Position numbers and translations under genes: made by a program
Notes under the pieces: generated by a model
The model's input: only the letters and a program-made list of their open reading frames with translations
The model's database searches: none
What the model was told of the DNA's origin: nothing
Part shown: piece after piece, positions 37,069-47,099 of the stretch
Position numbering within the stretch: position 1 is the stretch's first letter
How the letters are laid out: every line of letters starts with the position of its first letter
Source of the DNA: Microbacterium sp. B35-30
Lineage (GTDB): Bacteria > Actinomycetota > Actinomycetes > Actinomycetales > Microbacteriaceae
Direction: 5' to 3'
Assembly (NCBI RefSeq): GCF_010634855.1
Contig: NZ_MWLQ01000011.1
Location: 124,001-188,000, forward strand
DNA: 64,000 nucleotides

Positions 37069-39528
37069 ATGCCCGCTTCCCGCACCGATTCCTCACCCGC
37101 CGACCACGGACGCATCGAGGACGTCGACGTCTCGTCCGAGATGCAGACGTCGTTCCTCGAGTACGCGTACTCGGTGATCTATTCGCGCGCACTTCCCGAC
37201 GCGCGCGACGGGCTGAAGCCGGTGCAGCGGCGCATCCTCTTCCAGATGGCCGACATGGGCCTGCGCCCCGACCGCGGGCACGTCAAGAGTGCGCGCGTCG
37301 TCGGCGAGGTGATGGGAAAGCTGCACCCGCACGGCGACGCCCCCATCTACGACGCCCTGGTGCGTCTCGCCCAGCCGTTCTCGCTGCGCGTGCCCCTCGT
37401 CGACGGTCACGGCAACTTCGGCTCGCTCGACGACGGCCCCGCCGCCCCGCGCTACACCGAGGCTCGCCTCGCCCCGCCCGCGCTCGCGCTCACCGAGAAT
37501 CTCGACGAGGACGTCGTCGACTTCATCCCGAACTACGACGGGCAGTTCCAGCAGCCCGAGGTGCTGCCGGCCGCGTTCCCGAACCTCCTCGTCAACGGCA
37601 CGACCGGCATCGCGGTCGGCATGGCCACCAACATGGCGCCGCACAATCTCATCGAGGTGGTCGGCGCGGCGACCCATCTGCTCGACAATCCCGAGGCGAC
37701 CGTCGAAGAGCTCATGGAGTTCGTGCCGGGGCCGGACCTCCCCGGCGGCGGCATCATCGTCGGCCTCGACGGCATCAAGGACGCGTACACGAACGGACGC
37801 GGAAGCTTCCGCACGCGCGCGAAGGTGTCGATCGAGTCGCTGGGTCCCCGCCGCACCGGTCTCATCGTCACCGAGCTGCCGTACCTCGTCGGCCCGGAGC
37901 GGGTGATCGAGAAGATCAAGGACGCCGTCAACGCCAAGAAGCTGCAGGGCATCGCCGACGTCACCGATCTCACCGACCGCCACCACGGACTGCGCCTGGT
38001 CATCGGCATCAAGACCGGCTTCGACCCGCAGGCGGTGCTCGACCACCTCTACCGGCTGACGCCGCTCGAGGACTCGTTCAGCATCAACAACGTCGCCCTC
38101 GTCGAAGGGCAGCCGCAGACCCTCGGTCTCCGGGAGCTTCTGCGGGTCTACCTCGACCATCGCATCAGCGTCGTCACCCGGCGCAGCCGCTACCGCCTCG
38201 CGCGCCGCAAGGAACGCCTGCACCTCGTCGAGGGCCTCCTCATCGCGATCCTCGACATCGACGAGGTCATCCAGGTCATCCGCACCTCGGATGACGGCGA
38301 GCAGGCGCGCACGCGCCTGATGAGCGTCTTCGACCTGTCCGAACCGCAGGCCGAGTACATCCTCGAGCTGCGACTGCGGCGGTTGACGAAGTTCTCCCGC
38401 ATCGAGCTCGAGACCGAGCGCGACAATCTCAAGAAAGAGATCGCGCTGCTCGAGGAGCTCCTCGGCAGCGATGTGCTCCTCCGCGCGCAGGTGGCGCAGG
38501 AGCTGGATGCCGCAGCCGAGGCGTTCGGCACGCCGCGGCGCACGCTGCTGCTCAACGGCGGTCCGGTGCAGCCGCGCTCGCGCGCCGCGGCGGCCGCCGT
38601 CGACCTGCAGATCGCGGACGCACCGTGTCGCGTCTTCCTCTCGGCCACCGGACGCATGGTCCGTGCCGAGCTGGTGGCCGATGCGCCGGGTGGCGGCGTC
38701 GTGGCGCCGGCACGCCGCTCGAAGCACGACGCCATCCGCTCGTCGGTGGACGCGACCACCCGTGGCGACATCGGCGCGGTGACGAACCTCGGCCGCCTGG
38801 TGCGCCTCTCCCCCGTCGACCTGCCCTCGGTCCCCGGCAACTCGGTGCAGCTCGGCGCCGGGACGCGTGCCGATCAGTACCTCGGGCTGAGCGGCGGCGA
38901 GCACGTCGTCGCCCTGGTCCCGCTCGCCGACGCCCCGCCGATCGCCGTCGGCACGGCGCAGGGGATCGTGAAGCGCATCGCCGCGAGCGAGATCGCCAAC
39001 AAGCACGACATCGAGATCATCTCGCTCAAGGATGGCGACCGTGTGGTCGGCGCCGCGCCCGCCTCCGACGGCGCGGAACTGGTGTTCGTCGCCAGCGACG
39101 CCCAGCTGCTGCGTTTCGACGCGTCCTCGGTGCGGCCGCAGGGCCGTTCCGCCGGCGGCATGGCGGGCATCCGTCTGACGGACGGTGCGCACGTCATCGC
39201 GTTCGACGTCGTCGGCCCCTCGGAGTTCGACGCCGTCGTGGTGACGATCGCCGGCTCGACGACAGCGCTCGCGGGCACCGATGCCGTCAGCGCCAAGGTC
39301 TCGCTCTTCAGCGAGTTCCCCGCCAAGGGCCGTGCGACCGGCGGCGTCCGCGCCCACCGGTTCCTCCGCGGCGAAGATGCGCTGACGATCGCCTGGGTCG
39401 GCACCGACCCGCGTGCGGTCGGCGCCGATGGGGCGGTCCGCGCGCTGCCCGACTCGGGCGCGAAGCGCGACGCCTCGGGCACGGCGCTCGACGGCGTCAT
39501 CGCCGCGGTCGGCACCGGCATCCGCTGA
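37069..39528 (+). CDS. parC: DNA topoisomerase IV subunit A (ParC/GyrA-like)
   Basis: This type IIA topoisomerase subunit cuts and rejoins DNA; with ParE it would decatenate chromosomes. The 819-residue protein has [17 protein letters not shown] (about residues 42-58), the winged-helix segment [18 protein letters not shown], the active-site tyrosine in [15 protein letters not shown] (about residue 129), [19 protein letters not shown], and a coiled-coil tower. The C-terminal beta-pinwheel is divergent and lacks an obvious GyrA box (QRRGGRG), which favours ParC over GyrA. parE lies convergent downstream. Confidence 0.93.
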
Positions 39529-39543
39529 CGTTCACCGGGGCTT

Positions 39544-39614
39544 GAGCGAGCGAGGAACGAGCGACACGAAACGCGTCGAGCAGCAGACGGCGTTTCGTCT
39601 CGCTCCGCTCGCTC
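39544..39614. repeat. REP-like inverted repeat between parC and parE
   Basis: The arms 39544-39574 and 39590-39614 are imperfect inverted repeats built of GAGCGAGCG blocks and the core CGAAACGC/GCGTTTCG. They fill the space between two convergent genes, so they may also act as a terminator. From general knowledge similar GAGCGAGCG...GAAACG elements recur in Microbacteriaceae genomes. Confidence 0.6.
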
Positions 39615-39629
39615 GACGACCGGTGGTCG

Positions 39630-41711
39630 TCAGGCGTCGATGCGCTCGCGCGCGAGCCGGTCGCTGGAGTCGATGATGAACTCCTTGCGCGGCGCGACGT
39701 CGTTGCCCATGAGCAGCTCGAAGACGGATGCCGCAGCCTCGGCATCCTGCATCCGCACGCGGCGGAGGGTGCGGCCGGCACGGTCCATGGTCGTCGTCGC
39801 GAGCTGGTCGGCGTCCATCTCGCCCAGGCCCTTGTAGCGCTGGACCGGCTCCTGCCAGCGCTTGCCGGCCTTGGTCAGCTTGGTGAGCAGGCCGTGAAGC
39901 TCGCCCTCGGAGTAGGTGTAGATCGTGTCGTTCGGCTTGGATCCGGGATTCATCACGACCACGCGGTGCAGCGGGGGAACGGCGGCGTACACGCGGCCCT
40001 CGTCGATGAGCGGGCGCATGTAGCGGAAGAAGAGGGTGAGCAGCAGCGTGCGGATGTGCGCGCCGTCGACGTCGGCGTCGCTCATCAGGATGATCTTGCC
40101 GTAGCGCGCCGTCTCGAGGTCGAAGGAGCGACCCGAGCCCGCGCCGATCACCTGGATGATCGCGGCGCACTCTGCGTTCGAGAGCATGTCGCTGATGGAC
40201 GCCTTCTGCACGTTGAGGATCTTGCCGCGGATCGGCAGAAGGGCCTGGAACTCGCTGTTGCGCGCGAGTTTCGCGGTGCCGAGGGCCGAGTCGCCCTCGA
40301 CGATGAACAACTCCGACTCGGCGACGTCGTTCGACCGGCAGTCGGCGAGCTTCGCCGGCAGCGACGACGACTCCAGGGCGTTCTTGCGGCGCTGGGTCTC
40401 TTTGTGCGTGCGCGCCGAGATGCGCGCCTTCATCTCGGAGACGATCTTGTCGAGCAGGAGTGAGGTCTGCGCCTTGTCGTCGCGCTTGGCCGAGGTGAAG
40501 CGTGCGGTCAACTCGCGGATGATGACGTTCGACACGATCTGACGGACCGCCGGGGTGCCGAGCACCTCCTTGGTCTGCCCTTCGAACTGCGGCTCGGGGA
40601 CGCGCACGGTGAGCACCGCGGTGAGACCGGCGAGGATGTCGTCCTTCTCGATCTTGTCGTTGCCGACCTTGAGCCGCCGGGCGTTCTGCGCGACCTGATC
40701 GCGGAGGACCTTCATGAGCCCCTGCTCGAACCCCTGCTGGTGGGTGCCGCCCTTCGGCGTCGCGATGATGTTGACGAACGAGCGCGACACCGTCTCGTAG
40801 CCGGTCCCCCACCGCACGGCGACATCGACGTGGCATTCCCGCTCCACCTCGGTGGGCACCATGGCGCCCGACGGCTGCAGCACGGGAACGGTCTCGGTGA
40901 AACTGCCCTCGCCCGTGAGTCGCCAGGTGTCGGTGATGCCCGCGTCGGGGGCGAGGAAGTCGGCGAACTCGGAGATGCCGCCGTCGAACCGGTAGCTCGT
41001 CTCGACGGGTTCGCCGGTTTCGGTGCCCGGCCGCTCATTGCGGATGACGATCTCGAGGCCGGGGACGAGGAACGCGGTCTGGCGCGCGCGCTGCTCGAGC
41101 TCCTGCAGGTTGAAGGCGGCATCCTTCGTGAAGATCTGCGGGTCGGCCCAGTAGCGGATGCGGGTTCCCGTCACGCCCTTCGCGGCGCGGCCGGCGACCC
41201 GCAGTTCGCTGCGCTGCTCGAACGGCGTGAAGGTCGAGCTGGGGCTGCCGTTGGAGAACACGCCGGGCTCGCCGCGATGGAATGACATCGCCCAGGTCTT
41301 GCCGCCGCGGTCCACCTCGACGTCGAGGCGCTCCGACAGCGCATTGACGACGGACGCCCCGACGCCGTGCAGGCCGCCGGAGGCCGCGTACGAGCCGCCG
41401 CCGAACTTGCCGCCGGCGTGCAGCTTCGTGAAGACCACCTCGACGCCTGACAGTCCGGTGCGGGGCTCGATGTCGACGGGAATGCCACGGGCGCGGTCGC
41501 GCACCTCCACGCTGCCGTCGGCGTGGAGCACGATGTCGATCCGCGTGCCGTGACCGGCCAGGGCCTCATCGACGGAGTTGTCGATGATCTCCCAGAGGCA
41601 GTGCATGAGCCCGCGGGAGTCCGTCGAGCCGATGTACATGCCCGGGCGCTTGCGGACCGCCTCGAGCCCTTCAAGCACCTGAAGATGATGGGCGGAATAC
41701 TCGGCGGTCAC
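39630..41711 (-). CDS. parE: DNA topoisomerase IV subunit B (ParE/GyrB-like)
   Basis: This is the ATPase subunit of topoisomerase IV. The start is GTG at 41711 (VTAEYSAHHLQVLEGLEAVRK; GGGAGA upstream), giving 693 residues. GHKL ATP-site motifs are WEIIDNSVDEALAGHG, DRARGIPVDI and GGLHGVGASVVNALS. The TOPRIM region has ELFIVEGDSALGTAKLARNSEFQALLPIRGKILNV (read in parts), and LMSDADVDGAHIRTLLLTLF with metal-binding Asp residues. The C-terminus RKEFIIDSSDRLARERIDA is family-like. It is convergent with parC. Confidence 0.95.
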   Translation of the reverse strand: MTAEYSAHHLQVLEGLEAVRKRPGMYIGSTDSRGLMHCLWEIIDNSVDEALAGHGTRIDIVLHADGSVEVRDRARGIPVDIEPRTGLSGVEVVFTKLHAGGKFGGGSYAASGGLHGVGASVVNALSERLDVEVDRGGKTWAMSFHRGEPGVFSNGSPSSTFTPFEQRSELRVAGRAAKGVTGTRIRYWADPQIFTKDAAFNLQELEQRARQTAFLVPGLEIVIRNERPGTETGEPVETSYRFDGGISEFADFLAPDAGITDTWRLTGEGSFTETVPVLQPSGAMVPTEVERECHVDVAVRWGTGYETVSRSFVNIIATPKGGTHQQGFEQGLMKVLRDQVAQNARRLKVGNDKIEKDDILAGLTAVLTVRVPEPQFEGQTKEVLGTPAVRQIVSNVIIRELTARFTSAKRDDKAQTSLLLDKIVSEMKARISARTHKETQRRKNALESSSLPAKLADCRSNDVAESELFIVEGDSALGTAKLARNSEFQALLPIRGKILNVQKASISDMLSNAECAAIIQVIGAGSGRSFDLETARYGKIILMSDADVDGAHIRTLLLTLFFRYMRPLIDEGRVYAAVPPLHRVVVMNPGSKPNDTIYTYSEGELHGLLTKLTKAGKRWQEPVQRYKGLGEMDADQLATTTMDRAGRTLRRVRMQDAEAAASVFELLMGNDVAPRKEFIIDSSDRLARERIDA

Positions 41712-41879
41712 AGTCTCCCATCGTAATCCGGGCACCCGGCAGGCTCGTGCAGACACGCGTCAGGAGGATGAGCGCTACGCGCTCAGCGAAATGTCGCCTG
41801 TTCGCGGCATTCTCGAAACATCCCCGTGGTTGTATCTCATCACCGGCCAAGAGTTCTACGTATACGAGGAGGCACCGAA

Positions 41880-42098
41880 ATGACCACGCTATCGACACCC
41901 ACAGAGAACGGCGCCGTCCTCGAGTACCGACTGACCGCGATGGACCGCTGCGATTCGTGCGGCGCCCAGGCGTACATCGCTGCGGAGGTCAACGGCAGCG
42001 AACTGCTCTTCTGCGCCCACCATGGCCGCAAGTACGAAGAGAAGCTCCGCAGCATCGCGACCTCGTGGCACGACGAGACGGCCCGGCTGGCCGAATGA
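41880..42098 (+). CDS. DUF7455 small zinc-binding protein
   Basis: This is a 72-residue protein with ATG at 41880, preceded by GAGGAGG 7 bases upstream. The conserved core is AMDRCDSCGAQAYIAAEV followed by ELLFCAHHGRKYEEKL, a CxxC...CxHH metal site. The family (DUF7455) is common in actinobacteria beside parE and sigA. Its function is unknown. It ends 32 bases before a bidirectional terminator. Confidence 0.9.
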   Translation: MTTLSTPTENGAVLEYRLTAMDRCDSCGAQAYIAAEVNGSELLFCAHHGRKYEEKLRSIATSWHDETARLAE

Positions 42099-42130
42099 GT
42101 CTTGAGGGCTGCTGCCGCGCAGTCCTGTGA

Positions 42131-42168
42131 AGAACGCCCGTGAGACGTCTGCGTCTTGCGGGCGTTCT
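42131..42168. terminator. Bidirectional terminator between DUF7455 and the barrel-type alr gene
   Basis: The outer arms AGAACGCCCG / CGGGCGTTCT pair, and the inner AGACG/CGTCT extends the stem after a bulge. It contains the stop codon of the convergent alr-like gene at its edge. Confidence 0.8.
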
Positions 42169-43210
42169 ACGTGTAGACCCGGGGAATCAGCGGTGACACG
42201 CGCACGGCGATCTCTTCGCCGATCGTGTCGATGAGCTCGGCGAGGTCCGTCGCAGAGCCTTCGCCGTCTGTTGCAGTGCCGTAGATCCTGACGACATCCC
42301 CGGTCGCCGCACCCGGCCATGTGCCGACCAGCGACTCGGAGCCTCCCACGGCGAGCAGCGGCCGCCGCCCTCCCGGCGTTCCGACCCCGGCTCGGCCCTG
42401 CAGCGACGTGGGAAGTCCGTCCAGTGCGCCGAGACCGATCCTCACCGCCTCGTCCTGGACAGCGACGACGTCCGCCTCCAGCCGTGCGATCGGCTCCAGA
42501 CCCAGGTCCTCCGCGGACGGCCCGCCGGCTGAGCGGATGCCGTAGCAGAACGCCCCGACCCGCACCATGTCGTAGCGGAACTCCGGCCGGGCGAACGACG
42601 CCGCACTGGCGGCCAGATGACGGACGGACGGGTGGATGCCGGCGGCCTCGGCCTGAGCCAGAGCCGCCTCGAAGACGGCGCGGGCATCGTCGTCCTCGGC
42701 GTCGGACGCCTCGGCGATGTGGCTCCACACGCCGACGACGTCGATGAGCCCGGCGCTCTGCAGCTCAGCGGCCCGTGCGACGAAGGCGGGCCAGTCCTCC
42801 GGGCGGACGCCGTTGCGATGCAGGCCGGTGTCGATCTTGAGATGAACCTGTGGTGTCGCGCCGGCGTCGGCCGCGGCATCCGCCAGCTCTTCGAGAAGCC
42901 CGGCGTCGCCGACGCCGAGGTCGATGCGTGCGGCGATGGCGGCGCCGAAGTCGTCACGGGACGCCGCGATCCACGCGAAGACGCGGGCGTCGCTGCCGGC
43001 AGCGGCGCGAACGGCGGCCCCCGTCCGCACATCGAACGCCCCGAACCAGGTCACCCCGGCCGCCGCGGCGGCGTGCACGACGGGCTCCAGGCCGTGTCCG
43101 TAGGCGTCGTCCTTGACGACGAGCATCAGCTCGGCCGGCGTGACGGTCTCGCGCACGCGGGCGATGTTCGAGGTCAGCGCCTTCAGGTCGACGTGCAGTC
43201 GCGCGCTCAC
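42167..43210 (-). CDS. Alanine racemase-family protein, PLP-barrel half with reduced C-terminal domain
   Basis: Alr (fold III) interconverts amino-acid enantiomers with PLP. The start is GTG at 43210, overlapping the upstream gene by 4 bases; the product is 347 residues. The PLP barrel is intact: Lys33 in VVKDDAYGHG, Arg132 in KIDTGLHRNGV, His164 in WSHIAEA, HLAASAASFARPEF, and Arg217 in YDMVRVGAFCYG. The C-terminal domain is shortened: the catalytic Tyr motif VSYG is replaced by VRIGLG (Ile258), and the GYADG and GRxCMDQ segments are absent, while the end RVSPLIPRVYT is kept. The upstream gene supplies exactly these missing parts. Confidence 0.85.
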   Translation of the reverse strand: MSARLHVDLKALTSNIARVRETVTPAELMLVVKDDAYGHGLEPVVHAAAAAGVTWFGAFDVRTGAAVRAAAGSDARVFAWIAASRDDFGAAIAARIDLGVGDAGLLEELADAAADAGATPQVHLKIDTGLHRNGVRPEDWPAFVARAAELQSAGLIDVVGVWSHIAEASDAEDDDARAVFEAALAQAEAAGIHPSVRHLAASAASFARPEFRYDMVRVGAFCYGIRSAGGPSAEDLGLEPIARLEADVVAVQDEAVRIGLGALDGLPTSLQGRAGVGTPGGRRPLLAVGGSESLVGTWPGAATGDVVRIYGTATDGEGSATDLAELIDTIGEEIAVRVSPLIPRVYT

Positions 43211-43929
43211 GGCGCCTCCTCGCGGATCGCCCGCAGCCCGACGGCGGTGATGAGCTCCGGCGCGAACAGGCCGGTCGCGCGCACCCACTCGGCGAGCGAC
43301 GGCTCTCCGTGCGCGGGGTCACCGAGGAACAACACCTCGTCGCCTCGCCGGACGGCGGCATCTCGGATGTCGACGACGCACACGTCCATCGCGACACGCC
43401 CGACGATCGGATGCCGCTCGCCCGCGATCGCGACGTCGACGGCGCCGCCCAGCCCGCGGACGATGCCCTGTGCGTAGCCGCCGGTCACCAGCGCGACGCG
43501 CGTGTCCGCATCGGCGCGGTAGGCGTACCCGTACGACACGCCCTCGCCCGCGCGGAGGTCCTTCACCGAGAGCACCGTGCCGGAGAGCCGGAGTGCCGTG
43601 CGCGCCGGGGGCTCGGCACCGGGAAGGCCGAACAGCGTCGACGCCGACAGCCCGGTCGACGGCCGCGCGATCGCGGTCCCCGCCTCGACCCTGGCGACCG
43701 GCGCTTCGGCAGCGACGATCCCCTGAGCCTCGAGGACCTCGCGCACGAGCCCGCTGCCGTGCCCCCAGGCATCCGCTTCGAGAACGGAAGGATCGAAGGA
43801 ACGGATGCCGCGGCCCCAGGCGGCACGGGCGTTCGCGGTGAGCGCGCCGCGCGAGATGCGGGCGACGGGGCTGCTGCGAGGCTCCGATCCCGGCACGGGC
43901 ACGTCGTGCCCAGGGATCGAGGAACTCAC
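43207..43929 (-). CDS. Alanine racemase C-terminal-domain protein with vestigial barrel
   Basis: This 240-residue protein matches the Alr C-terminal beta domain at residues 113-237: TVLSVKDLRAGEGVSYGYAY with the catalytic tyrosine at 133, VTGGYAQGIVR, and PIVGRVAMDVCVVD (Met181-Asp182). Residues 24-72 keep a trace of the Alr N-terminus (ISRGALTANARAAWG, VLEADAWGHG), but the PLP lysine is Glu51, and almost the whole barrel is deleted. It cannot racemise alone by family rules. The GTG start at 43929 follows TAGTCT by 6 bases, fitting a leaderless message. The barrel-type gene follows with a GTGA overlap. Confidence 0.85.
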   Translation of the reverse strand: MSSSIPGHDVPVPGSEPRSSPVARISRGALTANARAAWGRGIRSFDPSVLEADAWGHGSGLVREVLEAQGIVAAEAPVARVEAGTAIARPSTGLSASTLFGLPGAEPPARTALRLSGTVLSVKDLRAGEGVSYGYAYRADADTRVALVTGGYAQGIVRGLGGAVDVAIAGERHPIVGRVAMDVCVVDIRDAAVRRGDEVLFLGDPAHGEPSLAEWVRATGLFAPELITAVGLRAIREEAP

Positions 43930-43934
43930 GCCTC

Positions 43935-43941
43935 TAGACTA
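43935..43941. promoter_or_regulatory. Overlapping divergent -10 elements (racemase pair / ATP-grasp gene)
   Basis: The seven bases TAGACTA hold TAGACT for the plus strand and TAGTCT for the minus strand. The minus box ends 6 bases before the racemase GTG (leaderless spacing). The plus box leaves a leader of about 30 bases before the ATP-grasp ATG at 43975. Confidence 0.5.
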
Positions 43942-43974
43942 TCGGGGTCCCCCGAACCCGATCCCGGAGCACGC

Positions 43975-44997
43975 ATGCCTTCTCAGGGCCTCGCCCTCTC
44001 GAACCGCCTTCGCTACCTCGCCTGGCGTGTCCGTCGCATCGATCTCGGATCCGTGCTGGAACGTGCGAAAGAGACCGCCCATGCGCACGGCAAGTGGACG
44101 CCGGCGGTGCTGGCCGACATGCTCTGGTCGGCCGGGTTCAAGCAGGTCGGCTTCCAGGACTACGTCGACTACGACTTCGCGATCCTGAACCGCGCCGAGC
44201 GGGCGACCTACATGACGCATCCGGTGTCGAACGAGCTGTCGCAGAAGTACGACCACCCGGACTACCGCGGCCTGTTCCAGGACAAGGTCGAGTTCGACCG
44301 CACGTTCAGCGACTTCCTCCGCCGGGACTGGATGGTCGTCGAGGAGGGCAATGCCGAGGCGGTGCGCGCCTTCGCCGAGAGTCACGGCACGATCGTCACC
44401 AAGGAGCCCGTGGGCCAGGCGGGCACCGGCGTGCACCGCTACCACGCCGCCGAAGTGGCGGACTGGGACGGGTTCCACCGCGGCCTCCTCGAGCGAGGTG
44501 AGCTGCTGATCGAGGAGGTCATCCGCCAGCACGCCGACCTCGCCGCGGTCTGCCCGGGGACGGTCAACACCACCAGGGTGACGGCCTTCTTCGACGGCCA
44601 GAAGACGCACATCCTGGCGATGGCGCAGAAGTTCGGGCGCGGTGCGGTGAGCGACCAGATGACCTTCGGCGGGTTCTACACGATGCTCGACGAGAACGGC
44701 CATGCCGTCGGCCCCGGGTACGACTCGCACGGGCACGTGCACGTCGCGCATCCCGACAGCGGCTTCGTCATCGCCGACTTCCAGCTGCCGATGATCGACC
44801 AGGTCAAGGAGTTCGTCGACCAGGTCGCGCGCGTCGTGCCCCAGATCCAGTACGTCGGTTGGGACATCGTGGTGACCCCCGAGGGCCCCGTGCTCGTGGA
44901 GGGCAACTGGGGCGCGGGCGTGTACGAGAACAAGCCCAGCATCACCGGCATCCGCACCGGCCACAAGGCGCGCTACCGCGAGGCCATCGGGTTCTGA
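43975..44997 (+). CDS. ATP-grasp domain protein (sugar-transfer-associated type)
   Basis: ATP-grasp enzymes join a carboxylate to an amine or thiol through an acyl phosphate. The 340-residue product starts at ATG 43975. After an Arg-rich N-terminus (LSNRLRYLAWRVRRIDL), the ATP-grasp core is seen: GTIVTKEPVGQAGTGVHRY (phosphate loop), LLIEEVIRQHADLA (adenine-contact strand), NTTRVTAFFDG, and YVGWDIVVTPEGPVLVEGNW with the Mg-binding Asp, Glu and Asn. It resembles the ATPgrasp_ST family. No membrane segment is visible. The shared promoter with the split racemase suggests a related substrate, but this is not shown. Confidence 0.8.
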   Translation: MPSQGLALSNRLRYLAWRVRRIDLGSVLERAKETAHAHGKWTPAVLADMLWSAGFKQVGFQDYVDYDFAILNRAERATYMTHPVSNELSQKYDHPDYRGLFQDKVEFDRTFSDFLRRDWMVVEEGNAEAVRAFAESHGTIVTKEPVGQAGTGVHRYHAAEVADWDGFHRGLLERGELLIEEVIRQHADLAAVCPGTVNTTRVTAFFDGQKTHILAMAQKFGRGAVSDQMTFGGFYTMLDENGHAVGPGYDSHGHVHVAHPDSGFVIADFQLPMIDQVKEFVDQVARVVPQIQYVGWDIVVTPEGPVLVEGNWGAGVYENKPSITGIRTGHKARYREAIGF

Positions 44998-45005
44998 CGC
45001 CTTCG

Positions 45006-45056
45006 GAACCGCGAAAGGGTATGTTTCCGATGCGGAAACATACCCTTTCGCGGTTC
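45006..45056. terminator. Perfect inverted repeat with 24-bp arms between convergent genes
   Basis: The arms 45006-45029 and 45033-45056 are perfect complements, starting GAACCGCGAAAGGG and ending CCCTTTCGCGGTTC, around an ATG loop. It lies 9 bases after the ATP-grasp stop and 7 bases beyond the CofE-like stop, so it can terminate both. It is much longer than other hairpins here and may be a mobile or dispersed palindrome. Confidence 0.7.
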
Positions 45057-45063
45057 TCTGCGA

Positions 45064-45759
45064 TCAGACCGCGCGCACGATGCCGAGCGGCGTGGACTGG
45101 TGGCCCTGACCGAGCGGGTTGTCCTTGAGGATCGCCACCAGGCGCTTCTCCCCTGCCTTGTCGAGGGTCGAGCCGAGGATGTTTCCGCCCAGATCGTTGA
45201 TGTCGACGACGGCGACCTCCGGCACACCGCCCACCAGGGTCTTGATGTGCTGGGCCACCTCGCGCGGCCGCTCCGGTCCGAGCACGACCGCCTTGTTGTA
45301 GGGCGGGATCGTGCCCGAGGTGGGACCGTCGATCGCGCGCGCCTTGTCGCCGGCGATGCGGTAGAAGTCGCCCTTGCGTCCGAACAGCTTCGTGACCGCC
45401 GACACAGCGGCCGCGAAGAGGATGCGGATCGTGCCGCACTCGCGCAGCGCCATCTCCATGGTCTCGGGCATGCCGAGACCGATGCCGTGCGGCGTGCGCG
45501 TGACGTACTTCGAGAGGAACAATGCGAGCCTGCGGGGCTTGATGTCATCGACGAGGTACGAGCGGCCCTGCGTGATCGCGACGACCTTCTCCGTCACGAA
45601 CAGCAGGTCGCCCTCGCGCACGGCATCCGCCGCATACTCGCGGATGAACTCATCGAGGTCGTCGCCCGGCATCACGACCCGCGTGCGGATCGGGATGCGA
45701 GCGAACGACGAGCCTTCGACCTGTACGGTGAGCGCCTTGCCGGCGTTCGCCTCGCTCAC
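45064..45759 (-). CDS. CofE-like (coenzyme F420-0:gamma-glutamyl ligase family) protein
   Basis: CofE adds glutamate to F420-0 by GTP-dependent gamma-glutamyl ligation. The 231-residue product starts at GTG 45759, overlapping the sigA stop by 4 bases. Family segments are [22 protein letters not shown] (about residues 48-69), [21 protein letters not shown] (about 77-97), [15 protein letters not shown] and [23 protein letters not shown]. No FMN/FbiB-type C-terminal domain is attached, and no other F420 gene is in the window, so the substrate may differ. Coupling to sigA is odd. Confidence 0.7.
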
Positions 45760-47099
45760 TCGAGGTAGTCCCGCAGGGACTGCGAGCGGGACGGATGCCG
45801 CAGCTTCGCCATGGTCTTCGACTCGATCTGGCGGATCCGCTCGCGGGTGACCCCGAACGTGTCGCCGATCTGGTCGAGCGTCTTCGGCTGACCGTCGCCG
45901 AGTCCGAAGCGCATGCGGATCACGCCGGCCTCGCGCTCGGAGAGCGAGTCGAGGAGCGACTCGAGCTGACGCTGCAGCATCGTGAAGCCGACGGCGTCGG
46001 CCGGAACCACGGCCTCGGTGTCCTCGATGAGATCGCCGAACTCGCTGTCGCCGTCCTCGCCGAGGGGCGTGTGCAGCGAGATCGGCTCGCGGCCGTACTT
46101 CTGCACCTCGATGACCTTCTCAGGGGTCATGTCGAGCTCGCGGCTGAGCTCCTCGGGCGTGGGTTCGCGACCGAGGTCCTGCAGCATCTGACGCTGCACG
46201 CGGGCGAGCTTGTTGATGACCTCGACCATGTGCACCGGGATGCGGATGGTGCGAGCCTGGTCGGCCATGGCGCGGGTGATGGCCTGGCGGATCCACCACG
46301 TCGCGTAGGTCGAGAACTTGAAGCCCTTGGTGTAGTCGAACTTCTCGACCGCGCGGATGAGACCGAGGTTGCCCTCCTGGATGAGATCCAGGAACTGCAT
46401 GCCGCGACCCGTGTAGCGCTTGGCGAGGGAGACGACGAGGCGCAGGTTGGCGCCGAGGAGGTGGCTCTTGGCGCGCTGGCCGTCGCGGGCGACCCACTGC
46501 AGGTCGAGACCCAGCTGCGACGTCTTCTCGGCCGCCGACATGTGCGACAGCTTCTCTTCGGCGAACAGGCCCGCCTCGATGCGCATCGCGAGCTCGACCT
46601 CTTCGGCCGCGTTCAGCAGCGGCACCTTGCCGATCTGCTTCAGGTAGTCCTTGACCGGGTCGGCGGTCGCGCCGGTGATCTGCGTCGAGTAGACCGGGAC
46701 ATCCTCGTCGTCGCTCGACGAGATGACGATCGCGCCCGTCGGGAGCGGCTCGGTGAACGCCGGCTTGGTGCTCTCCTCGTCCTCCTCCTCGTCCTCGGCG
46801 GCGCCGGGCTCATCGGTGGGGGCCTTCGCGTCCTTGGCGGCCGGAGCTGCCTCGGTCGCGTCGTCCGCGGTGTCCACCTCGATGTCGTCCGCGCCCTCGA
46901 GCTCGACGTCGAGCTCCTCGACGTCGTCCTCGAAGTCGTCGTCCGACTTCTTCGCGCGCTTCGAGGCGGTCTTCGGTGCCGCCTTCGCCTTGGGGGCGCC
47001 CTTCGCCGCGGGAGCCTTCTTCGCAGCGGGAGCCTTCGTCTCGTCCGTCTCGGTGTCCTTCGCGGCCGAGCGAGCCTTGGTGTTCGTGCCTGGAGTCAC
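45756..47099 (-). CDS. sigA: Primary RNA polymerase sigma factor
   Basis: This is the vegetative sigma-70 factor. The start is GTG at 47099 with AAAGG upstream; the product is 447 residues. The first about 130 residues are a Lys/Ala-rich then acidic extension. Region 1.2 begins near [16 protein letters not shown]. Region 2 has [22 protein letters not shown] and [20 protein letters not shown] for -10 recognition. Region 3 carries [19 protein letters not shown], and region 4 ends with [21 protein letters not shown] for -35 binding. It precedes a CofE-like gene and follows PAC2. Confidence 0.97.

Follow-up and report, generated by a model that had tools for sequence, protein, structure and literature searches.

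The window, a stretch of 64,000 nucleotides from Microbacterium sp. B35-30, carries two consecutive minus-strand genes that each encode part of an alanine racemase (Alr; Table 1). They belong to a neighborhood (37069-47099) composed of ParC, ParE, DUF7455, the racemase pair and an ATP-grasp gene, an F420-ligase-like gene, and SigA. The upstream gene encodes the C protein and the downstream gene the N protein. A Pfam search assigns Ala_racemase_C (E 9.7e-32) to C, with no barrel family, and Ala_racemase_N (2.3e-54) to N, which also matches Ala_racemase_C weakly and under the cut-off (4.6e-5). Both fall below the curated cut-off of 168 bits for TIGR00492, the alanine racemase equivalog, scoring 95.7 bits for C and 140.5 bits for N. 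A complete, canonical full-length Alr is also present in the source genome, on another contig (G000:C8).

Table 1. Genes, key residues, and neighboring gene of the racemase pair, in window coordinates
Feature	Coordinates	Strand	Description
C protein	43207..43929	minus	240 aa, GTG start; Ala_racemase_C domain and degenerate barrel stub
N protein	42167..43210	minus	347 aa, GTG start; complete PLP barrel and degenerate beta domain
GTGA	43207..43210	minus	C stop overlaps N start
Tyr133 of C	43531..43533	minus	Tyr265' equivalent, VSYG
Glu51 of C	43777..43779	minus	Position where canonical Alr carries the PLP lysine
Lys33 of N	43112..43114	minus	PLP lysine, Lys39 equivalent
Glu332 of N	42215..42217	minus	Tyr354 substrate-gate position
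ATPgrasp_ST (PF14397) protein	43975..44997	plus	340 aa; divergent neighbor of the pair; candidate ligase

The two reading frames, with their coordinates, lengths, order, and GTGA overlap, are as the original prediction described them, and the motifs it listed are present: Glu51, Tyr133, GYAQG, and GRVAMD in C, and Lys33, Arg132, His164, and Arg217 in N. Its account of the degenerate domain of N has to be amended. The segment VRIGLG, which had been taken for the tyrosine site, aligns instead with the strand before GYADG, the hairpin bearing Tyr265 being deleted in N; GYADG itself, thought to be missing, is degenerate and reads GALDG. The barrel of C had been called almost gone, which is largely borne out, yet a small alpha/beta stub persists (approximately residues 20-70, with a pLDDT of at least 90 in the model described below). 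A single frameshifted gene, already dismissed in the original prediction, is rejected because C precedes N and because the 4-base overlap is kept in 93 of 107 pairs, as counted with gene starts picked by script.

The canonical Alr homodimer contains two active sites, and each of them combines Lys39, Tyr43, Arg136, His166, Ser204, Arg219, and Tyr354 from one chain with Tyr265', Tyr284', Met312', and Asp313' from the other (numbered here and below as in Geobacillus Alr). In solved Alrs, the catalytic bases Lys39 and Tyr265' belong to different chains (PMC3485190). The distribution of these residues was followed in an alignment of 107 N and 109 C proteins (97 and 99 distinct) from 109 loci with the canonical Alrs of the genus; for each protein, 28 rows came from genomes of the genus, 23 from other genera, and the remainder from named records. 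Ten aligned rows are sequence duplicates, and the residue table excludes N proteins shorter than 300 residues (L125, L161) and C proteins shorter than 180. The disrupted locus of M. elymi (L168) is counted among the 107 N rows, of which 106 are intact.

Partition of the active site between the two proteins is nearly absolute. Lys39, Tyr43, Lys129, Arg136, and His166 are found in 106/106 intact N rows, and Ser204 and Arg219 in all 107; L168 is the sole row to fail at Lys39, Arg136, His166, and the gate (position 354). Neither Tyr265, whose hairpin is deleted, nor Met312 occurs in any of the 107 N rows, and the residual beta-domain residues amount to Asp at 313 in 25 rows and Tyr at 284 in eight. 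The C rows retain Tyr265, Met312, and Asp313 without exception (109/109) and Tyr284 in 107, with Phe in the other two. None of the 109 has Lys39, the position being occupied by Arg (53), Ala (36), Asp (8), Glu (6), or other residues (6), and the positions of Arg136 and His166 sit in the missing part. In no intact row does one chain encode both catalytic bases, N having only the Lys and C only the Tyr. The canonical Alrs of the genus have Lys39, Tyr43, Arg136, His166, Arg219, Tyr265, Tyr284, Met312, Asp313, and Tyr354 in 23/23. A first canonical set (22 of the 23 loci) had been chosen by motifs that included Lys39, Tyr43, and Tyr265 and was circular for those three; redone without the motif rule, the set gives 23/23 at every tested site. 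Each partner retains exactly the residues expected for one shared site.

The two genes also co-occur. At thresholds of E ≤ 1e-46 for C and E ≤ 1e-85 for N, a survey of 257 genomes of the genus shows that 213 carry both, three carry C only (these being 68, 72, and 76% complete), two carry N only, and 39 carry neither; because the genomes are related, the Fisher p of 4e-40 for this co-occurrence is only descriptive. A pair that was not co-conserved among relatives had been named beforehand as the sign of random decay, and the survey found the two genes to be co-conserved. Within a set of 35 genomes of the genus, drawn from 58 relatives, 28 have a separate C gene, and N adjoins C in all 28, as it does in 12/12 of a further locus set. 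All but two of the 35 have a canonical Alr; the exceptions, in which none was seen, are the pair-bearing G003 (94% complete) and G030 (77%), both of which are incomplete assemblies. Across 19 close pairs, for which N identity is 86-99.5% and synonymous sites are unsaturated, dN/dS ranges from 0.09 to 0.38 for C and from 0.11 to 0.21 for N. A ParE tree (16 genomes, 5 outgroups) places the seven pair-lacking genomes in more than one position, with partial support, which suggests that the pair has been lost repeatedly within the genus.

Several individual loci depart from the common arrangement. At L168, C and N are both in broken pieces, through either real decay or sequence errors. The genome G496 matches C twice and N twice and so appears to hold two pairs. 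The record labeled Stenotrophomonas maltophilia P13 (L111) has a Microbacterium-like locus and is probably mislabeled or contaminated.

Beyond Microbacterium, at least 11 further genera in the family carry the pair. At 24 loci from 11 of these genera (L061-L084), ParE or DUF7455 adjoins the pair in all 24, and the pair lies within the SigA-ParE-ParC neighborhood in 7/7 larger regions from other genera. Other genera of the family share the ParC-to-SigA neighborhood itself, in which the slot for the racemase pair and ATP-grasp gene is variable. Among the matches listed for 394 genomes of the class, those viewed from outside the family resemble canonical Alrs; two that seemed odd were rejected, G602 being an ordinary Alr and G606 one cut by the end of its contig. 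In genus g99 (G134, G196, G248, G294, G334), each genome has two C-like matches that start near the N-terminus, which suggests that these genomes carry two copies of the C gene.

Two arrangements found in other genera bear on how the pair arose. In genus g79 (L065, L067, L068, L072), the upstream protein is full length, with Lys39 replaced by Asp and with Arg136 and His166 also lost; the script's choice of starts trimmed these C rows, and the dead barrel was judged by eye. Taken at face value, this protein is an intermediate, with a dead barrel whose deletion would be yet to come. A tree of barrels recovers the N proteins as one group (93/89) separate from canonical Alrs, with the g79 dead barrels on a very long branch of unsure placement. 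A single reading frame of 663 residues, counted from a likely GTG, encodes both C and N in L084 (genus g95), where a linker of approximately 60 disordered residues joins them. This fusion keeps the partition, the C half reading VRADAYGHG, GVSYG, and SMDQ and the N half VVKSDAYGHD and TVGDE. It is a single case from one genome, and C and N are separate genes in three other g95 genomes; the added linker makes a sequencing artifact unlikely.

Structure models place both proteins in the same fold. The AF2 model of C (33 rows; pLDDT 87.2, pTM 0.82) comprises the small stub and the beta domain, and its residues 18-240, when compared with Alr chains, match best M. tuberculosis 6SCZ (Z 24.6, rmsd 2.8, 219 aligned). 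The L084 fusion was modeled from nine chosen rows (pLDDT 76.8, pTM 0.56), with a disordered linker; the rows were selected so as to fall on the correct half. When MAFFT aligned the fusion with numerous C and N rows, C rows were misplaced onto the N half. The N half of this model aligns with 1VFH over 348 residues (Z 39.6, rmsd 2.5). Judged by these models, the Alr fold of barrel and beta domain is adopted by the N half of the fusion and by C, whose barrel is truncated. A C-N interface with a composite site is predicted.

Taken together, it is highly probable that C and N are the subunits of a fold-type III PLP racemase that is an obligate heterodimer and has a single composite active site. Duplication of an alanine racemase would have given two genes that underwent reciprocal loss. 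N would donate Lys39, Tyr43, Arg136, His166, Ser204, Arg219, and an acidic gate residue, and C would donate Tyr265', Tyr284', Met312', and Asp313'; since the first set is confined to N and the second to C, their dimer would have one complete site and one dead. Such reciprocal decay toward a one-site heterodimer was the central claim of the original prediction, and the partition, the co-occurrence, the low dN/dS, the L084 fusion, and the g79 intermediate all argue for it; dimer formation and catalysis are predicted. The altered gate residue discussed below, the second, normal Alr, and the wider distribution are additions to that prediction. The pair would share with Alr (PF01168 plus PF00842, TIGR00492; S. 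lavendulae 1VFH, M. tuberculosis 1XFC) the fold, the PLP site, and the provision of Lys and Tyr by opposite chains, and every key residue occurs once between the two proteins, the gate Tyr excepted. Whereas Alr has two sites and both bases in every chain, the pair has two genes, one expected site, and Glu or Asp at the gate. In serine palmitoyltransferase, a duplicate without catalysis (LCB1/LCB2) is needed by its partner. The AdoMetDC-prozyme of T. brucei is likewise a duplicate that lost catalysis and is still needed by its partner, as would be the case in the pair. These systems belong to other families, and in contrast to them, both partners of the C-N pair have lost catalytic residues, reciprocally.

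Other readings of the same two genes fare less well. A barrel-less C could fill one side of an Alr dimer and might have canonical Alr as its partner instead of N, acting to regulate or inactivate it. This we consider very improbable, given that C and N come and go together while canonical Alr stays, that their genes overlap and are fused in L084, and that such a pairing does not explain why N lacks the Tyr265 hairpin. N might alternatively work alone as a nonracemizing fold-III enzyme, such as a lyase or a transaminase-like protein, with C as a structural helper; the second catalytic base is absent from N, and fold-III PLP proteins also have nonracemase activities. Such a division of labor is improbable, for the invariance of Tyr265, Met312, and Asp313 across the C rows would be needless in a structural helper. 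Random decay into pseudogenes would account for each protein being defective alone and for the disrupted pair of M. elymi, but it is already contradicted by the low dN/dS, the invariant complementary residues, and the co-occurrence, and its probability is practically nil.

The preferred reading, a one-site heterodimer, raises the question of its substrate, to which the gate residue speaks. Tyr354 (Tyr364 in M. tuberculosis) restricts entry to alanine, and the residue at this position controls substrate choice, being Thr in the lysine-preferring racemase Lyr, Ala in the broad-specificity racemase Bar, and Asn in VanT; Lyr and Bar/BsrV (4DZA, 4DYJ, 4BEU) keep the Alr fold and, with the gate Tyr replaced, admit larger substrates, and the serine racemase VanT likewise keeps that fold with its gate changed (PMC3485190). 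By docking, Thr391 of Lyr contacts the lysine N-zeta (same source). In AlrTt, where the substrate side chain faces the gate, changing the gate to Asp or Glu lowers alanine activity (PMC4517790). The canonical Alrs have the gate Tyr in 23/23, and the intact N rows have Glu in 93 and Asp in 13 of 106: Glu in every Microbacterium row, and, among those from other genera (L061-L083), Asp in 13 rows and Glu in 10. Unlike the pair with its acidic gate, Lyr and Bar/BsrV, whose structures are also among the fold matches of the models, are homodimers with Thr or Ala there, and VanT is a single chain with Asn, a residue that no intact N row has at the gate. The difference between Asp and Glu across genera could relate to the length of the substrate side chain. 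A Tyr at the extreme C-terminus of N was considered as the gate and rejected, since the terminal Tyr varies and the aligned gate lies in a T-I-x-Y-E motif.

Since Tyr354 is replaced by Glu or Asp in N, a cationic amino acid is proposed as the substrate, and ornithine, lysine, or diaminobutyrate would suit an acidic gate. In our estimation, the chances are about even that the substrate is cationic, most likely ornithine, and that the pair supplies the interpeptide bridge of B2-type peptidoglycan with D-Orn; the separate canonical Alr would then make D-Ala while the pair makes D-Orn. The same heterodimer could instead be merely a second alanine (or serine) racemase that gives extra D-Ala, as its family membership and the unchanged PLP-site residues of N would allow. 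With no canonical Alr seen in the incomplete assemblies G003 and G030, the pair may therefore supply D-Ala there. We regard this as rather unlikely as a general account, given the additional canonical Alr in 33/35 genomes of the genus and the Glu or Asp gate in 106/106 intact N rows, a change that lowers alanine activity in AlrTt (PMC4517790).

Cell wall chemistry offers a comparison for the cationic reading. The peptidoglycan of Microbacterium contains L-Lys, D-Orn, or diaminobutyrate, depending on the species (PMC10757982). Three species reported to contain D-Orn, M. testaceum, M. hydrothermale, and M. proteolyticum, have the pair; M. arborescens, reported to contain L-Lys, lacks it, an observation that covers the locus only. 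M. enclense NIO-1002 and M. kunmingense, both reported as Lys species, carry the two genes along with the same ATP-grasp variant; for a near relative of M. kunmingense, the reported type is Orn. Among reported species, the pair is thus present in three and absent from none of the D-Orn type and present in two and absent from one of the L-Lys type (Fisher p 1.0). M. hominis, which we take to be of the Lys type, has no C protein genome-wide, and eight cluster I species are presumably of the D-Orn type. With these types added, the counts become 11/0 and 2/2 (p 0.057, for species that are non-independent), at most a hint of an association between chemotype and pair. D-ornithine as leading candidate substrate is our guess from the gate residue and this comparison.

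The divergent ATP-grasp gene was surveyed at 80 loci, with identity measured to the ATPgrasp_ST protein of the window. A variant of at least 65% identity is at the locus in 52 of the 80, with the pair beside it in 50; in the other two (L179, L184), C and N lie elsewhere in the genome. A 55-62% variant occupies 11 loci, none with the pair, and C is absent in 7/7 whole genomes searched from among these 11. More distant copies are found at eight pair loci and three pair-lacking loci, and at six loci without ATPgrasp_ST, the pair is elsewhere in the genome with a variant of at least 78% beside it. Against a strict rule stand two pair-lacking genomes with 67-68% copies elsewhere and five pair-bearing genomes without an ATPgrasp_ST match. 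The variant at the SigA-ParE site tracks the presence or absence of the racemase pair, though not strictly (L105-L196). The ATPgrasp_ST enzyme may be the ligase for the D-amino acid. More tentatively, and with doubt prevailing over confidence, the pair could be the D-ornithine (cationic) racemase of type-B2 peptidoglycan with the ATP-grasp enzyme as its ligase, in which case lineages that switched to L-Lys would have lost the racemase while a different ATP-grasp variant was kept in its place next to ParE and SigA.

A search of the open-access literature found no prior description of a heterodimeric or split alanine racemase, nor a gene for a D-ornithine racemase of peptidoglycan. If the proposal is true, a textbook homodimeric enzyme has become an obligate heterodimer through reciprocal loss of its catalytic halves. 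Since an intermediate and a fusion survive in living genomes, the interdependence of the subunits would be directly testable, and the pair would provide a concrete gene candidate for the entry of D-ornithine into type-B cell walls.
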